Shown here in pieces: positions 20,783-36,518 of a stretch of 64,000 nt of DNA (position 1 is its first letter; each line of letters opens with the position of its first letter). The notes under the pieces are model-generated. The model saw nothing but the letters and a program-made list of their open reading frames with translations, ran no database searches and was not told where the DNA came from. Both the position numbers and the translations under genes were made by a program. Source of the stretch: Armatimonadota bacterium. Lineage in GTDB: Bacteria; Armatimonadota; Fimbriimonadia; Fimbriimonadales; Fimbriimonadaceae. The DNA lies in the NCBI GenBank assembly GCA_016125185.1, contig WGMG01000006.1:744001-808000 (forward strand). The letters run 5' to 3'.

Positions 20783-21298
20783 CTAAGCCGAAAGATCGAT
20801 GCCGCCCGGGTCGCCGGCGACGTAGATTCGGTCACCCGGCAAGGGGCCGATGGGGGAACCTTTCTGGTCGGCGTCCGAGCCGGAGATACTTCCCGTGCCG
20901 GCGGGAAGAATTCGCATTCCGGGAAGTGGATCGGTTTCGGTGCCCTTCTGGTTGGAACCGGAGCCAGCGGGAAGGATTCTCATTCCCGGGAGAGGTCCTG
21001 CTGAGGAGCCCTTCTGGTTGGTGCTAGTGGGCGAGATCATGTTCACAAACTCTTTCTTTGCGGTGCCAAGATCGCCAACCTGGAGGGCTTCTCCGATGGT
21101 GGACATCGGGTTTGCGTTATTCACTTGGTTGGGAGGAAGCGGTCCTCGGTTGGAGCCGCTCTTCTGAAGTCGCGCGAAGGCGGTGCGGGCGGCGGTCAAA
21201 TTGTTGTTCTGCAAGGCGTTCGCCAGAGGTCGAAGCGCGAGCGTGTTATCCTTGTCTTGTTGGTTGGAGCCAACGGCCACTAAGCTCGAGATGTTCAT
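20783..21298 (-). CDS. Repeat protein of the MNIS...DLSA pair, member 1
   Basis: A 171-residue low-complexity protein without a signal peptide or membrane segment. It starts MNISSL and ends IDLSA, as does its neighbour at 21651-22031. It has two helical units of the form L-x-x-A-L-x-x-(G/N)-(D/N)-L-x-x-A-(R/K)-x-x-F, about 25-44 and 70-88. Then come three copies of a Pro/Gly motif GPLPG-x-RI(L/Y)-x-AG in the last 80 residues, separated by NQKG or DQKG. Unknown function. The units resemble the GDL-x-x-AQ-x-AF helical repeats of uncharacterised proteins in other phyla (from memory). Probably a small helical repeat scaffold with a disordered tail. Confidence 0.7.
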   Translation of the reverse strand: MNISSLVAVGSNQQDKDNTLALRPLANALQNNNLTAARTAFARLQKSGSNRGPLPPNQVNNANPMSTIGEALQVGDLGTAKKEFVNMISPTSTNQKGSSAGPLPGMRILPAGSGSNQKGTETDPLPGMRILPAGTGSISGSDADQKGSPIGPLPGDRIYVAGDPGGIDLSA

Positions 21299-21650
21299 TT
21301 TCGTCTCCTTTTCGGGCGGGGCGAAGATCGGTAAAAATGCTAGGTCCCGGATTGATTGTCGGTCAATCTATTGAATGTGATTAGGTTTGGCGAAATTTAG
21401 CCCTTTGCCGTTGGTGGCGACGGGGCTTCGCCCGGGTCGCCCCGATTCTCGGGACTCCTTGAACTCTAAACGGTGCGGTGCAGATCCAGGGGTCTTCGCT
21501 TTGCTACGACGCCCTAAGGGTTGATTAAATACTTGGGTTTTAGTCGGCGCTACGAACTCGACTCTGATCAATTTGTTCAGGGTGAGAATTAGGCAAGAAG
21601 TAGGGCCGCTTGCTTCGGCGGAAGGGCGGCCCAGGGTTAGTGCAGGTGAT
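21299..21650. other. Intergenic region between the two repeat-protein genes
   Basis: 352 bases. GGGCCGC/GCGGCCC with a 14-base loop (about 21604-21634) could be a terminator for the 21651 gene but lacks a T run. The rest is probably the leader of the 20783-21298 gene. The 67-codon frame here shows no domain. Confidence 0.45.
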
Positions 21651-22031
21651 TTAAGCCGAAAGATCGACGGAAAGGCTTCCGGAGAGGTTGACGGCGTTGG
21701 TGTTGGTCGAACTGGAGTCGTCCGCCTTGTGGTGGTGATGATGCTGGTGCGCCTGCGACATCTGGGTCTGCATTGACTGGAAAGCCTTTTGCGCGCCCGC
21801 GAGGTCGCCCGACTGGAGTGCGGAGCTCAGGGCCGACCAATTCTGATCGTCGGCGTCGTTGTCGTTGCCTTTGGCTCCTTGCTTGGATTGTCGCTTGGCC
21901 TGGATGTCGGCAAATGCCTTTTGTGCTCCGGCCAAGTCACCGCTTTTCAGAGCCGATGCGAGCGCCTGGAAAGGTCGCGGCTTCGTCTCTTGCTGAGCGG
22001 CGGCGGCTGTTTGTAAGCCCGAAATGTTCAT
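21651..22031 (-). CDS. Repeat protein of the MNIS...DLSA pair, member 2
   Basis: A 126-residue paralogue of the 20783-21298 product. It starts MNISGLQTAAAAQQ and ends VDLSA, and has two near-identical units LASALKSGDLAGAQKAFADI (about 25-44) and LSSALQSGDLAGAQKAFQSM (about 68-87). A His-rich linker QAHQHHHHHK (about 92-101) could bind metal. There is no signal peptide. The last coding bases of both genes are nearly identical (GATCTTTCGGCT then stop), so the terminus is under selection or recently duplicated. Unknown function; proteins with GDLAGAQ-type repeats are widespread but uncharacterised. Confidence 0.7.
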   Translation of the reverse strand: MNISGLQTAAAAQQETKPRPFQALASALKSGDLAGAQKAFADIQAKRQSKQGAKGNDNDADDQNWSALSSALQSGDLAGAQKAFQSMQTQMSQAHQHHHHHKADDSSSTNTNAVNLSGSLSVDLSA

Positions 22032-27075: not shown

Positions 27076-28119
27076 TTATTCGTACGAGTAGTTGCCCTCG
27101 TGGGCGTTTTCGATGTACTTGGCGAGGAGGTCGATACAGGCCTTGACGTCGTCTTTGTGCACCGTCTCGTTGACAGTGTGGATGTACCGCGTCGGCGTGG
27201 AGAGTGTGAAGGCGGGGATGCCGCCGTGCAGGCGCTGGATTCCACCGGCGTCAGTGCCGCCACGGGGAAGCACTTCCATTTGATAGGGAATTTTGTTCTT
27301 GATGGCGACTTGGCGGAAGTGCTCGACGACCTTGGGGTGGCAAATGAGCGAACCATCGAGAATCTTGATAGCCGCGCCCTTACCGAGCTTGGTGACATGA
27401 TCCTGCTCGGGCACGCCGGGAATATCGTTAGCCAGGGTCACGTCGAGGGCGACGACGATGTCGGGGGCGATGGCCGAACCGGCGGCAGAGGCTCCGCGCA
27501 GGCCGATTTCCTCTTGGACAGTGGCGACGGCGTATACATCGACCTTGTGCTTCTTGGCCTTCTTGACGGCTTCGATCATGATGAAGACGCAGACGCGGTC
27601 GTCCATGGCCTTACAGCTAAAGAGATCACCCAGCGAGATCATTTGGCGGCTCATCGAGACCATGTCGCCAATGGTGACGACGTCTTTGGTCTTGTCGCCC
27701 AGGCCGACGTCGACGAAGAAGGAGTCCAAGTTCTGACCCGCGTTCGCTTCAGCGTCGGTCAGCAAGTGCTTGGGCTTGGTACCGTACATCAGGACGCCAT
27801 TGAGGGGACCCTTTGCGGTGTGGACGATGACGCGCTGGGAATTGAGCTGGCGAGGATCGAAGCCGCCAAGCGGGTTGATGCGGATGAAGCCGTCCTTATC
27901 GATAAATTTGACGACAAAGCCGATTTCGTCCATGTGGGCGGCGAGCATCAGCTTTTTGCCATTGCCAGACCCTTTTTTGACCGCGATCAGGTTGCCCATG
28001 TAGTCGGTCGATAGCTCACAGATGCCCTTTAGCTCGCGGGCGACGATCTTGCGGATTTGGTCTTCCTGACCGGGGACGCCGTGCCCTTCCACTAATTCCT
28101 TGAGCAATTCCGTGTTCAT
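27076..28119 (-). CDS. M42-family aminopeptidase / glutamyl aminopeptidase-like
   Basis: A 347-residue cytosolic zinc/cobalt peptidase of the tetrahedral aminopeptidase type. The marks are AAHMDEIGF (H62), KAMDDRVCV, the catalytic pair in TVQEEIGLRGA, ALDVTLAND and the last metal His in TRYIHTVNE. Such enzymes form dodecamers that trim short peptides after proteasome or protease action. It is the first gene of an operon with yggS and sepF. No signal peptide is visible. A 387-codon antisense frame here is a composition artefact. Confidence 0.92.
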   Translation of the reverse strand: MNTELLKELVEGHGVPGQEDQIRKIVARELKGICELSTDYMGNLIAVKKGSGNGKKLMLAAHMDEIGFVVKFIDKDGFIRINPLGGFDPRQLNSQRVIVHTAKGPLNGVLMYGTKPKHLLTDAEANAGQNLDSFFVDVGLGDKTKDVVTIGDMVSMSRQMISLGDLFSCKAMDDRVCVFIMIEAVKKAKKHKVDVYAVATVQEEIGLRGASAAGSAIAPDIVVALDVTLANDIPGVPEQDHVTKLGKGAAIKILDGSLICHPKVVEHFRQVAIKNKIPYQMEVLPRGGTDAGGIQRLHGGIPAFTLSTPTRYIHTVNETVHKDDVKACIDLLAKYIENAHEGNYSYE

Positions 28120-28209
28120 TCGGCTTGTTTTACCGTCTTAAGGAGTGTGGAAAACGAGTTCTTCTTTTTTTTCGTAGACTAAGGGAGAATTCTTCTAAGG
28201 AGTTGGAAT

Positions 28210-28551
28210 ATGTCTGAGCAAATCAAAAACGCGATCAAGGAGAACCCGTACCAGTTCGAAAACGAGTTCATGACCGTGAAGTTCCAGCAGGGCCTACCGC
28301 CCGAAGTTGGAATCAACGGCGTTCAAGTGGAGGATGTGATCGAGGTTGCGATTGCGAAGCTCGAATCCTACCAGTCGGGCCCGCTGGCATGTTCGGAGAA
28401 CACGGCCGCGATCCAGGCGCTGACGGTGGCTAAGGACGCTCTCAAGCGCCGTCGCCAGCGACGAATGCTCCAGGGGGTTTTCAACACGATGAGCCCGCAC
28501 GTGGAGCGAACAGAAGACGTTTTGGACGAATTTTCCGCCACGGGCGCGTAA
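28210..28551 (+). CDS. Acb2/Tad1-hairpin-domain-like protein (formerly DUF7681 type)
   Basis: A 113-residue protein whose first 95 residues follow, from memory, the consensus of the phage Acb2/Tad1 hairpin domain: NPYQFENEFMTVKFQ (12-26), EVGINGVQVEDVIEV (32-46), LESYQSGPLACSENTAAI (51-68) and a final helix with RRRQRRMLQGVFNT. Acb2 and Tad1 are phage proteins that sequester cyclic nucleotides or gcADPR to block CBASS or Thoeris immunity. Here it is a single chromosomal gene with no phage genes around it. It has a strong AAGGAG ribosome binding site (28197-28202) and a longer acidic C-terminal tail. The binding function is inferred and unproven. Confidence 0.65.
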   Translation: MSEQIKNAIKENPYQFENEFMTVKFQQGLPPEVGINGVQVEDVIEVAIAKLESYQSGPLACSENTAAIQALTVAKDALKRRRQRRMLQGVFNTMSPHVERTEDVLDEFSATGA

Positions 28552-28571: not shown

Positions 28572-30371
28572 ATGAGGGGATTGACCTTTTCGGGCGCCGT
28601 GTTTGGCGCCCTTTTGCTGGGTCCCTATGCTTGCGCCCAGCTCTCCTATACGGTGTCCGATGGGCCGGATACCTCCAAGCTGCATGTTCATCTTGAGTTC
28701 AAAGCCAACTCGGCGTTAACTCAGTTGCAGATGGCGAACTGGGGGCCGGGTTCGTACCGCTACGCCAACAACTGGACTCGGGTTAGCGCGCCGGTGATGA
28801 CGGTCGGTGGGGTGGATCAGACCGTCGACCGCGTGGAGACGGGCACTTTGCCGAAGATTGTGAATTGGCAGGTGCGGACTCACATCGGCGATATGGTGAC
28901 GGTCGATTACGACGTCAACGTTCAGTTTGCCGACGGGATCGGCCACTACGGCGGCCCGGCAACCTACATGTATCCGGTTGGCCGCACCCAAGAGCCGTGC
29001 CAACTGAAATTTGCGTTCGCGAAGCCGACGCCGATCGCGATCGGAATCGAGCCGGAAGTTGAGAACACTTCGTACAGCATCGATACGTTCGACCATTTGG
29101 CCGATAACCCGGTCACGTACGGGGACTACACGGTGGACACCTATACGCAGTACGGCAAGACTCACTACATCGCATATCGCGGCGCTCCCGCCATAGTGGC
29201 GGGTGTCGATCGCGACTACGTGAAGAAGGCGTGCCAGTTCGTGACCATGATGGAAGGCGACTTCTTCGGCGGGTCTGTGCCTTACGACCGCTACGTGTGG
29301 CACTTTGCGGTTAACCAGGGTGCCGACGGCGCGGGCGGACTGGAGCATCTTTCTTCGACAGAGATTTCGATGGCGCAGGGCGTCGGTCCAGGTGTGGTGG
29401 GTGTGTACGCCCACGAGTTCTTCCATCTTTGGAACGTGAAGCGGATTCGTTCGAAGATCCTTGGCCCCTTCGATTACACGACGTTGCCGCAAACTGGAGC
29501 TTTGTGGTGGTTGGAAGGCGTTACGGACTACTATGCCCACACGCTTTTGGGACGATATGGCTGGTACGGCAAGAACGAGCGGTTCGACAACTCGATCGAC
29601 AAGATGTACGGCACGTTGGTGCAGAACGTGGTTTCGGTGCGCCGAAATGCGAACCGAAAGATCGTGTCGCCGTATGAAGCCAGTTTCCGAGTTCGAGAGG
29701 CAGCGAACGGTGTCGGAAACTCGCAGGGGTACTTGATCAGTTACTACGACACCGGTTGGCTGTGCGGCCTGTGTCTGGACATCGAGATTCTGGACCAGAC
29801 GAAAGGGAAGTACTCGCTTGACGATGTCGAGCACGAACTGTATCGACTCTGTAAGGACAATCAACCGGGATTCACCGAAGGCAAGATTCGGGAACTCGTG
29901 GCGCGATTTGGCGGTGCTGAGAGTGGAAAGCTCTACGACCAGATCATCATGCACCCTGGCGAACTGCCAGTGGAGGCTCAGCTAGCCAAGATCGGTCTGG
30001 CTTTGGCAACGGTCGAAGAGACCTATGGCAAGACGCCATTCTTGACCGAAGCGAGCCCAGACGACAAGGCACTGAAGGTGATTTCGTCCGAAGTGCCGGG
30101 TATCAAACTGGGCGATTTGGTGACGAAGATTAACGGCACCTCGTTCAATAGCAGCGACCGACGGACTCTGCTTGGCGGATTTCGCGACCTAACGCGAAAC
30201 CTGAAGCCCGGCACCAAGTGGTCGGTGACGGTGATCTCCGACGGCGAGACGAAGCAGGTCGAGGTCGAGGTCGCGTCGGCGACGCGCAACTCGTACAAGG
30301 TGATCGAGACCAGCTCGGCAACGCCGGAGCAGAAGCGACTGCGCAAGCTGTTCGAGTCGAAGAAGCGGTAA
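28572..30371 (+). CDS. Secreted M61-family peptidase with PDZ domain
   Basis: A 599-residue protein with a signal peptide (LTFSGAVFGALLLGPYACAQ), an N-terminal beta domain and the M61 catalytic centre HEFFH (281-285), followed by E315 in WWLEGVTDYY. The conserved HLWNVKRIR sequence after the zinc motif is typical of glycyl-aminopeptidase (M61) proteins. A PDZ domain follows (about 495-585, with IKLGDLVTKINGTSF). It probably processes peptides in the periplasm. It starts 20 bases after the Acb2/Tad1-like gene and could share its transcript; a hairpin at 30385 ends it. Confidence 0.9.
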   Translation: MRGLTFSGAVFGALLLGPYACAQLSYTVSDGPDTSKLHVHLEFKANSALTQLQMANWGPGSYRYANNWTRVSAPVMTVGGVDQTVDRVETGTLPKIVNWQVRTHIGDMVTVDYDVNVQFADGIGHYGGPATYMYPVGRTQEPCQLKFAFAKPTPIAIGIEPEVENTSYSIDTFDHLADNPVTYGDYTVDTYTQYGKTHYIAYRGAPAIVAGVDRDYVKKACQFVTMMEGDFFGGSVPYDRYVWHFAVNQGADGAGGLEHLSSTEISMAQGVGPGVVGVYAHEFFHLWNVKRIRSKILGPFDYTTLPQTGALWWLEGVTDYYAHTLLGRYGWYGKNERFDNSIDKMYGTLVQNVVSVRRNANRKIVSPYEASFRVREAANGVGNSQGYLISYYDTGWLCGLCLDIEILDQTKGKYSLDDVEHELYRLCKDNQPGFTEGKIRELVARFGGAESGKLYDQIIMHPGELPVEAQLAKIGLALATVEETYGKTPFLTEASPDDKALKVISSEVPGIKLGDLVTKINGTSFNSSDRRTLLGGFRDLTRNLKPGTKWSVTVISDGETKQVEVEVASATRNSYKVIETSSATPEQKRLRKLFESKKR

Positions 30372-32970: not shown

Positions 32971-34059
32971 CTAGTTGGGGTCGAGTTTAATGTGGTCAAA
33001 GACGTAGATTTCCTTTTCGCTTTCGGTGACCAGGAGCGAAGTACAGAGATCTTTTCGCAGATACGTCGTGATATTGAGGATGGCTCCTGGCTGTTGGTAC
33101 ATTGGGTCGAATGACATCCCGTTGGCGTAAATGTAGGGAGATGCCAGCGGCCTTCCGCCCGACTGATGGTGATTCATCCACTCCTGAACAATCTTGTCAT
33201 TCACAGGATTTCCGTCCTTGTCGACGTACGAAATGGGATTCCCCTTGCCGTCGGCATACATCGCGGAGAATGCCTTCATCGGATTCGCGACCGAAAAGAC
33301 TTTAACCTGGATGTCGGTCTTCGGCTTAATCGGGTTGGCCGGTTCACCATAAAATGGCCCATCTTTCCCAGTTTTGTGCTCGGAAATTGAGATCACTTCG
33401 AAGACATTGCCTCCGACCTCGAATTGGCCGGGGTGGAGCGGAATCTGATGGGGTTTGTCGTCACGATGAGTGACGACATATCGGAAAGGAAATTCCTTCG
33501 TATCTTTGTTAAAGGCTCCTCCCATCGTGCTCCAAGATGTGCTCGACCCATCGAAGTCACTGGCAGAAGCCCAAAAAGTGGTACCGCCGTAACGACCCCA
33601 ACCCTCGGCAAAGCCCGGCTTCGAATAGTTTGGATTCATCGGAGTTCCATCGCCAAGTGAGGTGCCGGAGTTCTCCCGCCGCTCACGGGTCACGAGGACC
33701 CGATTCTTCTTCCCGATGACGACTGAAAACGTTCGGTATTCTTGGTTCTGGCTCTTGATCCCTCGATTCAGAGAGTCGGTCAAATGCTCGTTGGGCGAGC
33801 CATCGGGTTTCCAGCAGAGGGCCGAATCCGGTTCTACCTTGCAGACGCCCTCGATACCAAACTGATGGTTTCCTAGGTCGACTTCGTTATTCGAGACGAC
33901 GTGTTCGCCAGCTTGAGGTGGAAGCCCATTCTCGGCGAAGGACTTGGGAAGGCCAGGGGACTGTTGGTGATTGGCCACCGCAGATAGGGCGAGGGCCACA
34001 AATGTGAGGCCCAAGGCGTGGCTTGCAAAGGTTCGCTTTTTGTTCATGGCTCCACTCAT
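32971..34059 (-). CDS. Secreted Cys-rich-motif protein, paralogue C
   Basis: A 362-residue protein with a signal peptide (KKRTFASHALGLTFVALALSAVA). It shares several blocks with the two upstream paralogues: GIEGVCKVEPDSALCWKPDG (two Cys, 70s-80s), KKNRVLVTRE, GGAFNKDTKEFPFRYVVTHRDD, EVISISEHKTGKDG and the last strand EIYVFDHIKLDPN. No known domain is recognised. Start 34059 lies in an ATGA overlap with the upstream paralogue's stop, so the two are coupled; ATG 34047 is an alternative. A secreted beta-rich protein with one conserved disulfide is likely. Confidence 0.65.
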   Translation of the reverse strand: MSGAMNKKRTFASHALGLTFVALALSAVANHQQSPGLPKSFAENGLPPQAGEHVVSNNEVDLGNHQFGIEGVCKVEPDSALCWKPDGSPNEHLTDSLNRGIKSQNQEYRTFSVVIGKKNRVLVTRERRENSGTSLGDGTPMNPNYSKPGFAEGWGRYGGTTFWASASDFDGSSTSWSTMGGAFNKDTKEFPFRYVVTHRDDKPHQIPLHPGQFEVGGNVFEVISISEHKTGKDGPFYGEPANPIKPKTDIQVKVFSVANPMKAFSAMYADGKGNPISYVDKDGNPVNDKIVQEWMNHHQSGGRPLASPYIYANGMSFDPMYQQPGAILNITTYLRKDLCTSLLVTESEKEIYVFDHIKLDPN

Positions 34060-35084
34060 TTGGGGTCAAGGTAGATCGGGTCGAAATTGTAGATGGTTCG
34101 ATGGTTGGATGTCAGTACCAGCTTATGAATTGCCTTTCGGTCCAGGTCGAAGCGAATGTAAACGGGAGTGCCTGGCTTCATGTAAGTAGGATCGAGAGCA
34201 CTTTGCATGGAGATGGGTCTTCTTCCGAAGCCCGGCCCGAATTGTGGCCCGCCGATGACTTTGCCCTGACGAATCTGGTCTTGGCTCCGCTTTTGCCACT
34301 CGGCGGCAGTGAGGGGGTGACCCTTTTCGTCTAAGGTGACGTACATTTCTCCCTTTTGGTTTGCGGGCGACAATTGGACGATGGTAGATGGGTCAACTAG
34401 ACTGATAGGCTTGATCTTGAGGTAAGTCACCTTCTGATTGGGCTGGGGATTGAATCCAAAGCCTCCGGTTACCGTTGGCGGTTTGGACGGATTATCCAAG
34501 ATGTCCATGATCTCGAACTTGTTTCCGTTGATCTCAAATGTGCTCTTCTTGAAGTCGATGACAGATTTGCCCGTGTTCAATTGGGTGAACTGGTATTGGA
34601 GGGGGTGTGTTTCTGTCGTCTTGTCGAAGCTGCCGCACAGGTAAATATGCTCGACCTGCTCGTGATCGCCGGTGGCTGAAGCGTTGTACGAAGAGAAGAT
34701 CGTATTCGAGGTCCAAGTTTCACTTTGCGGACCGCCGTCGGCATAGACGAGTCCATAGCTAAATGGCAGATCTCCTGGTTTTGCTGCTTTGGTGACCGAC
34801 TTTAGCATGAGGATTCGATTCTTACGATTGAATCGGAATTGGGCTTGGGGTGGCGGGTTGTTTGGGTTGCCTTCGCAGGTCTTGATGAATTCCTCGGTGA
34901 TCGCCTTATCTTTGGTCCCGTCCGGCTTCCAGCATTCGATGGAATCTTCTGAGACTTTGCAGATGCCTTCCACCTCGACAGTTCGATTGCTGACGGTGAG
35001 GCTATAGCCTTTGATCGTCTGAATTTGTTTCGCGCCAGCGATGCCGATCGCCAGGGTGGCGGCTGTACCCAAAAGTAGCTTCAC
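34056..35084 (-). CDS. Secreted Cys-rich-motif protein, paralogue B
   Basis: A 342-residue protein with a signal peptide (KLLLGTAATLAIGIAGA). It contains VEVEGICKVSEDSIECWKPDG, RKNRILMLKSVT, CGSFDKTTETHPLQYQFTQL, FEINGNKFEIMDI and the end RTIYNFDPIYLDPK, matching paralogues A and C in the same order. It is separated from paralogue A by a terminator (35168-35203) and overlaps paralogue C by four bases, so B and C form a transcription unit. No family is recognised. Confidence 0.65.
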   Translation of the reverse strand: MKLLLGTAATLAIGIAGAKQIQTIKGYSLTVSNRTVEVEGICKVSEDSIECWKPDGTKDKAITEEFIKTCEGNPNNPPPQAQFRFNRKNRILMLKSVTKAAKPGDLPFSYGLVYADGGPQSETWTSNTIFSSYNASATGDHEQVEHIYLCGSFDKTTETHPLQYQFTQLNTGKSVIDFKKSTFEINGNKFEIMDILDNPSKPPTVTGGFGFNPQPNQKVTYLKIKPISLVDPSTIVQLSPANQKGEMYVTLDEKGHPLTAAEWQKRSQDQIRQGKVIGGPQFGPGFGRRPISMQSALDPTYMKPGTPVYIRFDLDRKAIHKLVLTSNHRTIYNFDPIYLDPK

Positions 35085-35167
35085 GATTTACCCTCCACAA
35101 AAGAGACATTCTGTCCCCTTCTATTTATCAGTCACGCGAAAGGTCGAATCGGTTCGGTGATTTTCAC

Positions 35168-35203
35168 AAAAAGTGCGGCCCGCATGGTTTTGAGGGCCGC
35201 ACT
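35168..35203 (-). terminator. Terminator after paralogue A
   Basis: On the minus strand AGTGCGGCCC/GGGCCGCACT (arms 35172-35181 and 35194-35203) is followed by TTTTT (35168-35172) and GTG. It lies seven bases after the stop at 35211 and separates paralogue A from B and C. Confidence 0.85.
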
Positions 35204-35210
35204 GATCGTT

Positions 35211-36518
35211 TTAGTTGCGGTCCAGTTTGATCTTGTCGAACACGAAGATGGTTCGATGGTTGACCGCGCCGACGAGCTTCTTGATCTTTGAAGGCTCGAC
35301 GTTGATCTGCATCATGCGGGTCATGTTGGCCCCGCCCGACGACAGGTGGCTTGGATCGAGCGACAAGGAAAGCAGGTAGCGGTTCGACATTGAACGGCTG
35401 TAGTCGTAAGGTTTGCCAGATTGTTGGGCTTCCAGCATCTTCTTTTGGTCGTCGGCGCGCTGTTTTTGGGCCTCGGCTTGGGTGACCGGATTACCCTTGT
35501 CGTCGAGCCCACCGTAGGGTTGGCCCGAGTCGTCGGCGGGCATGAGATTCACAACCGAGTATGGATTGGTGATCTTGACCACTTTGAGGCCAATGAAGCT
35601 GTACTTCATCGGGGGCTGATTGCCGGATCTCATCATGGGCGGATTTCCACGGTCACCTTTGTCGGAGATCGAGACGATCTCGTAGGTGTTTCCGTCGATG
35701 GTGAACGGACCCTTTTGGAAGGGGATCGAGGCCTTGTCTTGGTTCGACGGCGAGTAGCTGGTGATTTGATAGCGGAGAGGGAAGGTCTTGGTGTCTTTGT
35801 TGAATGCGCCAGTAAGGACCTGTCGTTCGATGCGGCTTTGGTCAAAACCGGTCGAACTGGATTGGTTGAAGAACGAATAGTTCTGGGTCCAGCCTTCGGT
35901 AAAGCCGGGGCCGTGCTGGTAATCGTTCATCAGACCAAAGCTGCCACTAAACCCTTGGCGGCCCGGCTGGGGAGGCGCCGTCGTGGTCTTGAGCACCAGA
36001 ATTCGGTTCTTCTTCATGAACTTGAACTGGAAGTTGCTGGAATAGTCGTCTGACCGGCTTTGGATGGCATTGGTGAGTTCTTTGGCCAAATCGTCGTTGC
36101 GGTCACCATTGGGCTTCCAACACATGGCCTCGTCCTCGGTTAGCTTGCAGACGCCTTCGACCTCAACTGTACGGTCGCCAGCTTCTATCTTGAAGTCCTT
36201 TGCGACCTGCTCGCCGGGCTTGGGCGGAGCCGCAGCGGGGTTTTCTCGCGGCGGGGCCGACGGCTGGCTTGGTGCGTGGGTTGGAATCCCCGAGCCCCGT
36301 AGAGACGGGTTCACCATTGGCGAGGTGGCGTTGGCGGTCTTAGGGGGTTCCGGATTTGATTTTTGATCGGCGGGCGTGTTGGTAGACGAAGTCTTGGGCG
36401 AGACTTGGGGCTCAGGGGCGGCGGGTAGGTTTTCGCTGCTCGGGCTTTGCCCGCATCCGATCATTATTCCGGCGACCAAGCAGGCACCGGCGAGTTGCTT
36501 GACGAATCGATCTGTCAT
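35211..36518 (-). CDS. Lipoprotein with Cys-rich motif, paralogue A
   Basis: A 435-residue protein. The N-terminus LAGACLVAGIMIGCGQS has a lipobox-like IMIGC, so it is probably a lipoprotein. A long Pro/Ser/Thr linker (30-105) leads to the shared core: VEVEGVCKLTEDEAMCWKPNG, KKNRILVLKTT, GAFNKDTKTFPLRYQITSY, FTIDGNTYEIVSISDKGDRG and the end HRTIFVFDKIKLDRN. Function unknown. It is the first gene of the paralogue set and has its own terminator. The Pro-rich linker suggests a stalk that presents the core at the surface (inference). Confidence 0.68.
   Translation of the reverse strand: MTDRFVKQLAGACLVAGIMIGCGQSPSSENLPAAPEPQVSPKTSSTNTPADQKSNPEPPKTANATSPMVNPSLRGSGIPTHAPSQPSAPPRENPAAAPPKPGEQVAKDFKIEAGDRTVEVEGVCKLTEDEAMCWKPNGDRNDDLAKELTNAIQSRSDDYSSNFQFKFMKKNRILVLKTTTAPPQPGRQGFSGSFGLMNDYQHGPGFTEGWTQNYSFFNQSSSTGFDQSRIERQVLTGAFNKDTKTFPLRYQITSYSPSNQDKASIPFQKGPFTIDGNTYEIVSISDKGDRGNPPMMRSGNQPPMKYSFIGLKVVKITNPYSVVNLMPADDSGQPYGGLDDKGNPVTQAEAQKQRADDQKKMLEAQQSGKPYDYSRSMSNRYLLSLSLDPSHLSSGGANMTRMMQINVEPSKIKKLVGAVNHRTIFVFDKIKLDRN

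Follow-up and report, generated by a model that had tools for sequence, protein, structure and literature searches.

The window analysed here is a 64,000-nt stretch of a Fimbriimonadaceae genome (Armatimonadota assembly GCA_016125185.1, contig WGMG01000006.1, positions 744,001 to 808,000), and in it an intact open reading frame (28210-28551, forward strand) runs from ATG to TAA over 113 codons. Searches with phmmer and a profile, an AlphaFold2 model, Foldseek and structural alignment identify its 113-residue product as a member of the Tad1 family. An AAGGAG ribosome binding site (28197-28202, forward strand) is read from the sequence 7 nt 5' of the ATG, and the same AAGGAG precedes the copy in L031, the nearest relative. 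All relatives aligned keep the frame open, and dN/dS values of ~ 0.03-0.12, for the pairs with computable dS, indicate strong purifying selection. Together, the open frame and the low dN/dS show that this is a real gene.

The annotated neighbours are cellular on both sides. On one side are genes for a divergently oriented M42 aminopeptidase (27076-28119, reverse strand), a protein with a YggS-type alanine racemase fold, and SepF. On the other side are an M61 peptidase (28572-30371, forward strand), which begins 20 bp 3' of the Tad1-like gene, a STN-domain protein and a DUF423 protein. The adjacency to M61 is conserved in several members of the genus and in a genome of another genus (L058). The GC content of the Tad1-like gene (0.573) and its GC3 (0.746) are those of the adjoining M61 gene, and thus give no sign of recent import. 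Around the gene, an Rfam scan that included the c-di-AMP riboswitches returned no match, and promoter and terminator scans gave chance-level signals only. NCBIfam and PADLOC yielded no informative match.

Assignment to the Tad1 family is firm by sequence and predicted fold. The first-pass annotation had proposed a resemblance to the Acb2/Tad1 family; phmmer, profile and Foldseek comparisons now bear this out by computation, and specify the Tad1 type. Against the PDB, phmmer matches the protein to phiKZ gp184 (5.6e-11), CmTad1 (1.3e-8) and CbTad1 (5.7e-6), and a profile built from 32 host homologues reaches CmTad1 at 7.7e-16. The protein also matches phrog_2428 (4.6e-18), a group that contains SBSphiJ7 Tad1 (8e-47). 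No Acb2 chain was matched by sequence in either the phmmer or the profile search of the PDB. The Pfam model PF24729 (Acb2_Tad1_hairpin), with which the same annotation would have confirmed the family, finds nothing at its curated cut-off in this genome or in the 32 members. This negative cannot refute membership because the model recognises just one of seven phage relatives tested and misses the other six. PF24729 is evidently narrow, and surveys that use it will undercount the Acb2/Tad1 family.

The AlphaFold2 monomer model (pLDDT 80.8) predicts beta strands and a loop (residues 15-37, 28252-28320, forward strand), the latter with the Q26, G28, G34, N36 and G37 of the Tad1 FQxG...NG motif, and then two long helices (residues 40-88, 28327-28473, forward strand) that form the Acb2/Tad1 hairpin. 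All of the Foldseek hits ranked 1-20 are Tad1, and this is also true of a separate model of a member of the other host branch. VIA-align superposes residues 1-96 on Tad1 with Z up to 9.7, and identities in the structural alignments are 26-39%. The fold over this span is thus shared with CbTad1 (7UAW/8SMD), CmTad1 (8KBB-8KBD) and SBSphiJ7 Tad1, as are the FQxG...NG loop and the F/Y-Q, C-x-E-N and R-x3-R motifs. T4 Acb2 (Vs.4, 7UQ2) shares the helical hairpin, and aligns with it only (Z 6.3 over 59 residues), a level that unrelated helical proteins also attain. The N-terminus of Acb2 is a short helix, whereas that of the modelled Fimbriimonadales protein is a Tad1-like beta and loop segment. As modelled, the protein is therefore Tad1-type and not Acb2-type. 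The same domain forms the C-terminal part of the phiKZ-type gp184 and 201phi2-1 gp280 proteins, and in gp184-type proteins it is fused to the long N-terminal part of an injected virion protein (PMC10449902).

Six residues (Q26, G28, G37, N64, R81 and R85) are invariant in an alignment of 37 host and 20 phage sequences (57/57), and position 54 is mostly aromatic across the same rows. N64 (28399-28401) aligns with CbTad1 N92, and R81 and R85 (28450-28464) align with R109 and R113, which we take to be ligand contacts. Y54 (28369-28371; all forward strand) aligns with CbTad1 F82, presumably the residue that stacks on the ligand. The first-pass annotation tied family membership to conservation of such contacts, and N64, R81 and R85 are indeed kept throughout. 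The protein probably binds nucleotides. It differs from Tad1 in the host-specific H97, in the host-specific Q88 that replaces R/K, and in an additional C-terminal tail ending in FSATGA (residues 94-113, 28489-28548, forward strand), which is modelled with low confidence. The tail occurs in all genus relatives aligned, is absent from phage members and is missing in most other host genera; the string F-S-A-T-G-A-stop occurs once in the whole genome. It could serve to close the pocket or to bring in a partner.

Tad1 (Thoeris anti-defence 1) is a gene of phages and prophages, whose product sequesters immune signal nucleotides (gcADPR and cyclic di- and trinucleotides) and so inhibits Thoeris or CBASS, whereas the Fimbriimonadales protein is encoded by a resident bacterial gene that needs no accompanying Thoeris system. 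A search of 61 relatives recovered it from all 20 genomes of the genus. A profile search of 291 Armatimonadota genomes, the phylum to which all distribution figures here apply, gave 68 positives, all in the order Fimbriimonadales, bacteria of soil and water: 63 of the 85 genomes of its own family (f1) and 5 of 8 in a second family (f5). There were none among the 18 genomes of the sister family (f2) or elsewhere in this sample. A GTDB contig scan with the single protein as query returned just two close relatives, and neither the protein nor a host alignment (A1) found a relative in IMG/VR. The other relatives found here are all from phages or phage-like plasmids. A literature search turned up no paper connecting Tad1 or Acb2 with Armatimonadota or Fimbriimonas.

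In an unrooted tree based on 78 columns, a branch of length 1.03 with support 98/99 separates the host sequences, as one clan, from 20 sequences of phages, prophages and plasmids. Since the tree is unrooted, it is compatible with transfer in either direction between phage and host; the word "domesticated" in the first-pass annotation presupposes the phage-to-host one. The M61/STN/DUF423 block is common to this genus (g1) and the other genus represented by L058 (g7), and a different conserved block occurs in f5. No signalling gene is common to the neighbourhoods of all three. We counted ~ 14 presence/absence changes of the gene on a rough CdaA tree, so it is dispensable or mobile in some lineages. 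The genome studied here has a second, diverged copy with a GTG start (G000:C6:909891-910175; L033:5889-6233) that groups with copies from other genera and lies between genes we identified, by reading the sequence, as NRAMP-like transporter and DUF1003-like. The gene studied here is a resident, largely vertically inherited chromosomal gene, core-like in its genus, and not a phage leftover. This accords with the non-phage setting first described for it, given the cellular neighbours, the genus-wide presence and the single host clan.

So, what would a bacterium do with its own Tad1? We searched 113 genomes of the order for SMODS, DncV-like, TIR_2, ThsB_TIR, Cas10, GGDEF, DAC and class III cyclase families. 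Sixteen gene-bearing genomes that are at least 95% complete have no SMODS, DncV-like, TIR_2, ThsB_TIR or Cas10 match, and GGDEF is absent from three gene-bearing genomes that are 98-99% complete. DAC, the c-di-AMP synthase, was found in 66 of the 68 gene-bearing genomes, and the two misses are assemblies that are 70% and 89% complete. In a separate observation, three near-complete genomes of the same genus (G010, G013 and G014) have no GGDEF whereas relatives have 4-18, and their lineage seems to have lost c-di-GMP synthesis.

The gene is kept where no searched immune-signal enzyme family was found, and a role in the cell's own signalling is thus probable. Among the sources of di- and oligonucleotides and of ADPR-type signals that we tested, only DAC accompanies the gene throughout, making c-di-AMP the likeliest ligand. 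DAC is also present in every near-complete relative without the gene, so the case for c-di-AMP is one of elimination. Against it, class III cyclases likewise occur in 68 of 68 gene-bearing genomes, and synthases of other families may be the source of the ligand. cAMP-type mononucleotides, however, are not known to be ligands of Tad1. c-di-AMP is bound with high affinity by Acb2 and weakly by Tad1 (reviewed in PMC12043709).

We consider it about an even chance (~ 50%) that this is a resident, largely vertical member of the Tad1 family that buffers or senses an endogenous cyclic nucleotide, most likely c-di-AMP on grounds of elimination. The protein would assemble as a dimer or hexamer, as phage Tad1 does, could bind cyclic nucleotides in inter-protomer pockets, and might act as a stoichiometric buffer of, or receptor for, the endogenous signal. 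The first-pass annotation had offered two roles. That of a domesticated regulator of a nucleotide-based defence sits poorly with the 16 near-complete gene-bearing genomes in which CD-NTase, TIR and Cas10 matches are lacking. The host's own cyclic-nucleotide signals provide a better fit, and it is this role that we infer.

What is new here is that a protein family known from phages has a cellular branch spanning a whole bacterial lineage. More tentatively, the branch may do housekeeping work as a buffer of, or receptor for, an endogenous cyclic dinucleotide, most likely c-di-AMP, and share ancestry with phage Tad1; phages may have co-opted a signalling protein of their hosts to evade immunity. 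Sponges have so far been described as phage weapons. A resident, lineage-wide branch that retains the pocket residues would show one and the same protein at work in cellular signalling, and may represent either the source of the phage sponges or their domestication. It also allows one to test whether bacterial sequestering proteins tune the cell's own second messengers or confer tolerance of CBASS.

The latter idea, in which the resident sponge is a host-encoded brake that sets a threshold and mops up leaked CD-NTase product, rendering arriving CBASS operons tolerable, is unlikely. Of the 68 gene-bearing genomes, 15 have a CD-NTase (SMODS or DncV-like), against 0 of 25 gene-lacking relatives in f1 and f5 (Fisher p 0.009; at genus level, p 0.008; SMODS alone, p 0.018). 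TIR_2 or ThsB_TIR proteins have no such link within these families (36/68 versus 12/25). On the rough CdaA tree SMODS changes independently ~ 12 times, never in the opposite direction. However, several families were tested for association, a sign test on independent pairs is not significant (there are too few pairs), no CD-NTase was detected in 53 of the 68 gene-bearing genomes, and a sponge should blunt the defence too. We take the association as a weak hint that a resident sponge makes CBASS tolerable.

Another alternative is that the Tad1 scaffold no longer sequesters a signal and has another role, played through its tail or surface. The genus-specific FSATGA tail and the host-specific Q88 and H97 would suit such a function, and related hairpins do occur in phage virion proteins, such as the injected phiKZ gp184 (PMC10449902). 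We regard this as quite unlikely, given that the presumed ligand-contact residues are among the few that are invariant and that most other host genera do without the tail.

We give still less credence to a domesticated anti-defence gene that acts as it does in phages and shields the host from TIR/Thoeris or type III CRISPR autoimmunity. The nearest characterised relatives are phage Tad1 proteins, and just over half of the gene-bearing genomes have TIR_2 or ThsB_TIR, yet TIR shows no association with the gene in f1 and f5, strong Cas10 hits are limited to 3 of the 68 gene-bearing genomes, and 16 near-complete genomes keep the gene with no match to any of these families. As an aside, type III CRISPR Cas10 is found in 11 of 18 f2 genomes and is rare in the gene-carrying families f1 and f5, a contrast that tracks clades.

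Finally, a prophage remnant or a chance resemblance is hardly credible, despite the phage or phage-like plasmid origin of all other relatives found here, in view of the genus-wide presence, conserved neighbours, purifying selection, resident GC and single host clan. A recent phage insertion is refuted, and an ancient phage origin is conceivable.

Elsewhere in the window, ARAGORN calls a tRNA-Asn at 35762-35845 (forward strand), antisense within a protein-coding gene and probably a false call. At 32971-36518 (reverse strand), secreted proteins of 342-435 residues are encoded by three genes in tandem that look related to one another and have no PADLOC match. Two short proteins encoded at 20783-22031 (reverse strand) contain internal repeats resembling LQSGDLAGAQKAF.
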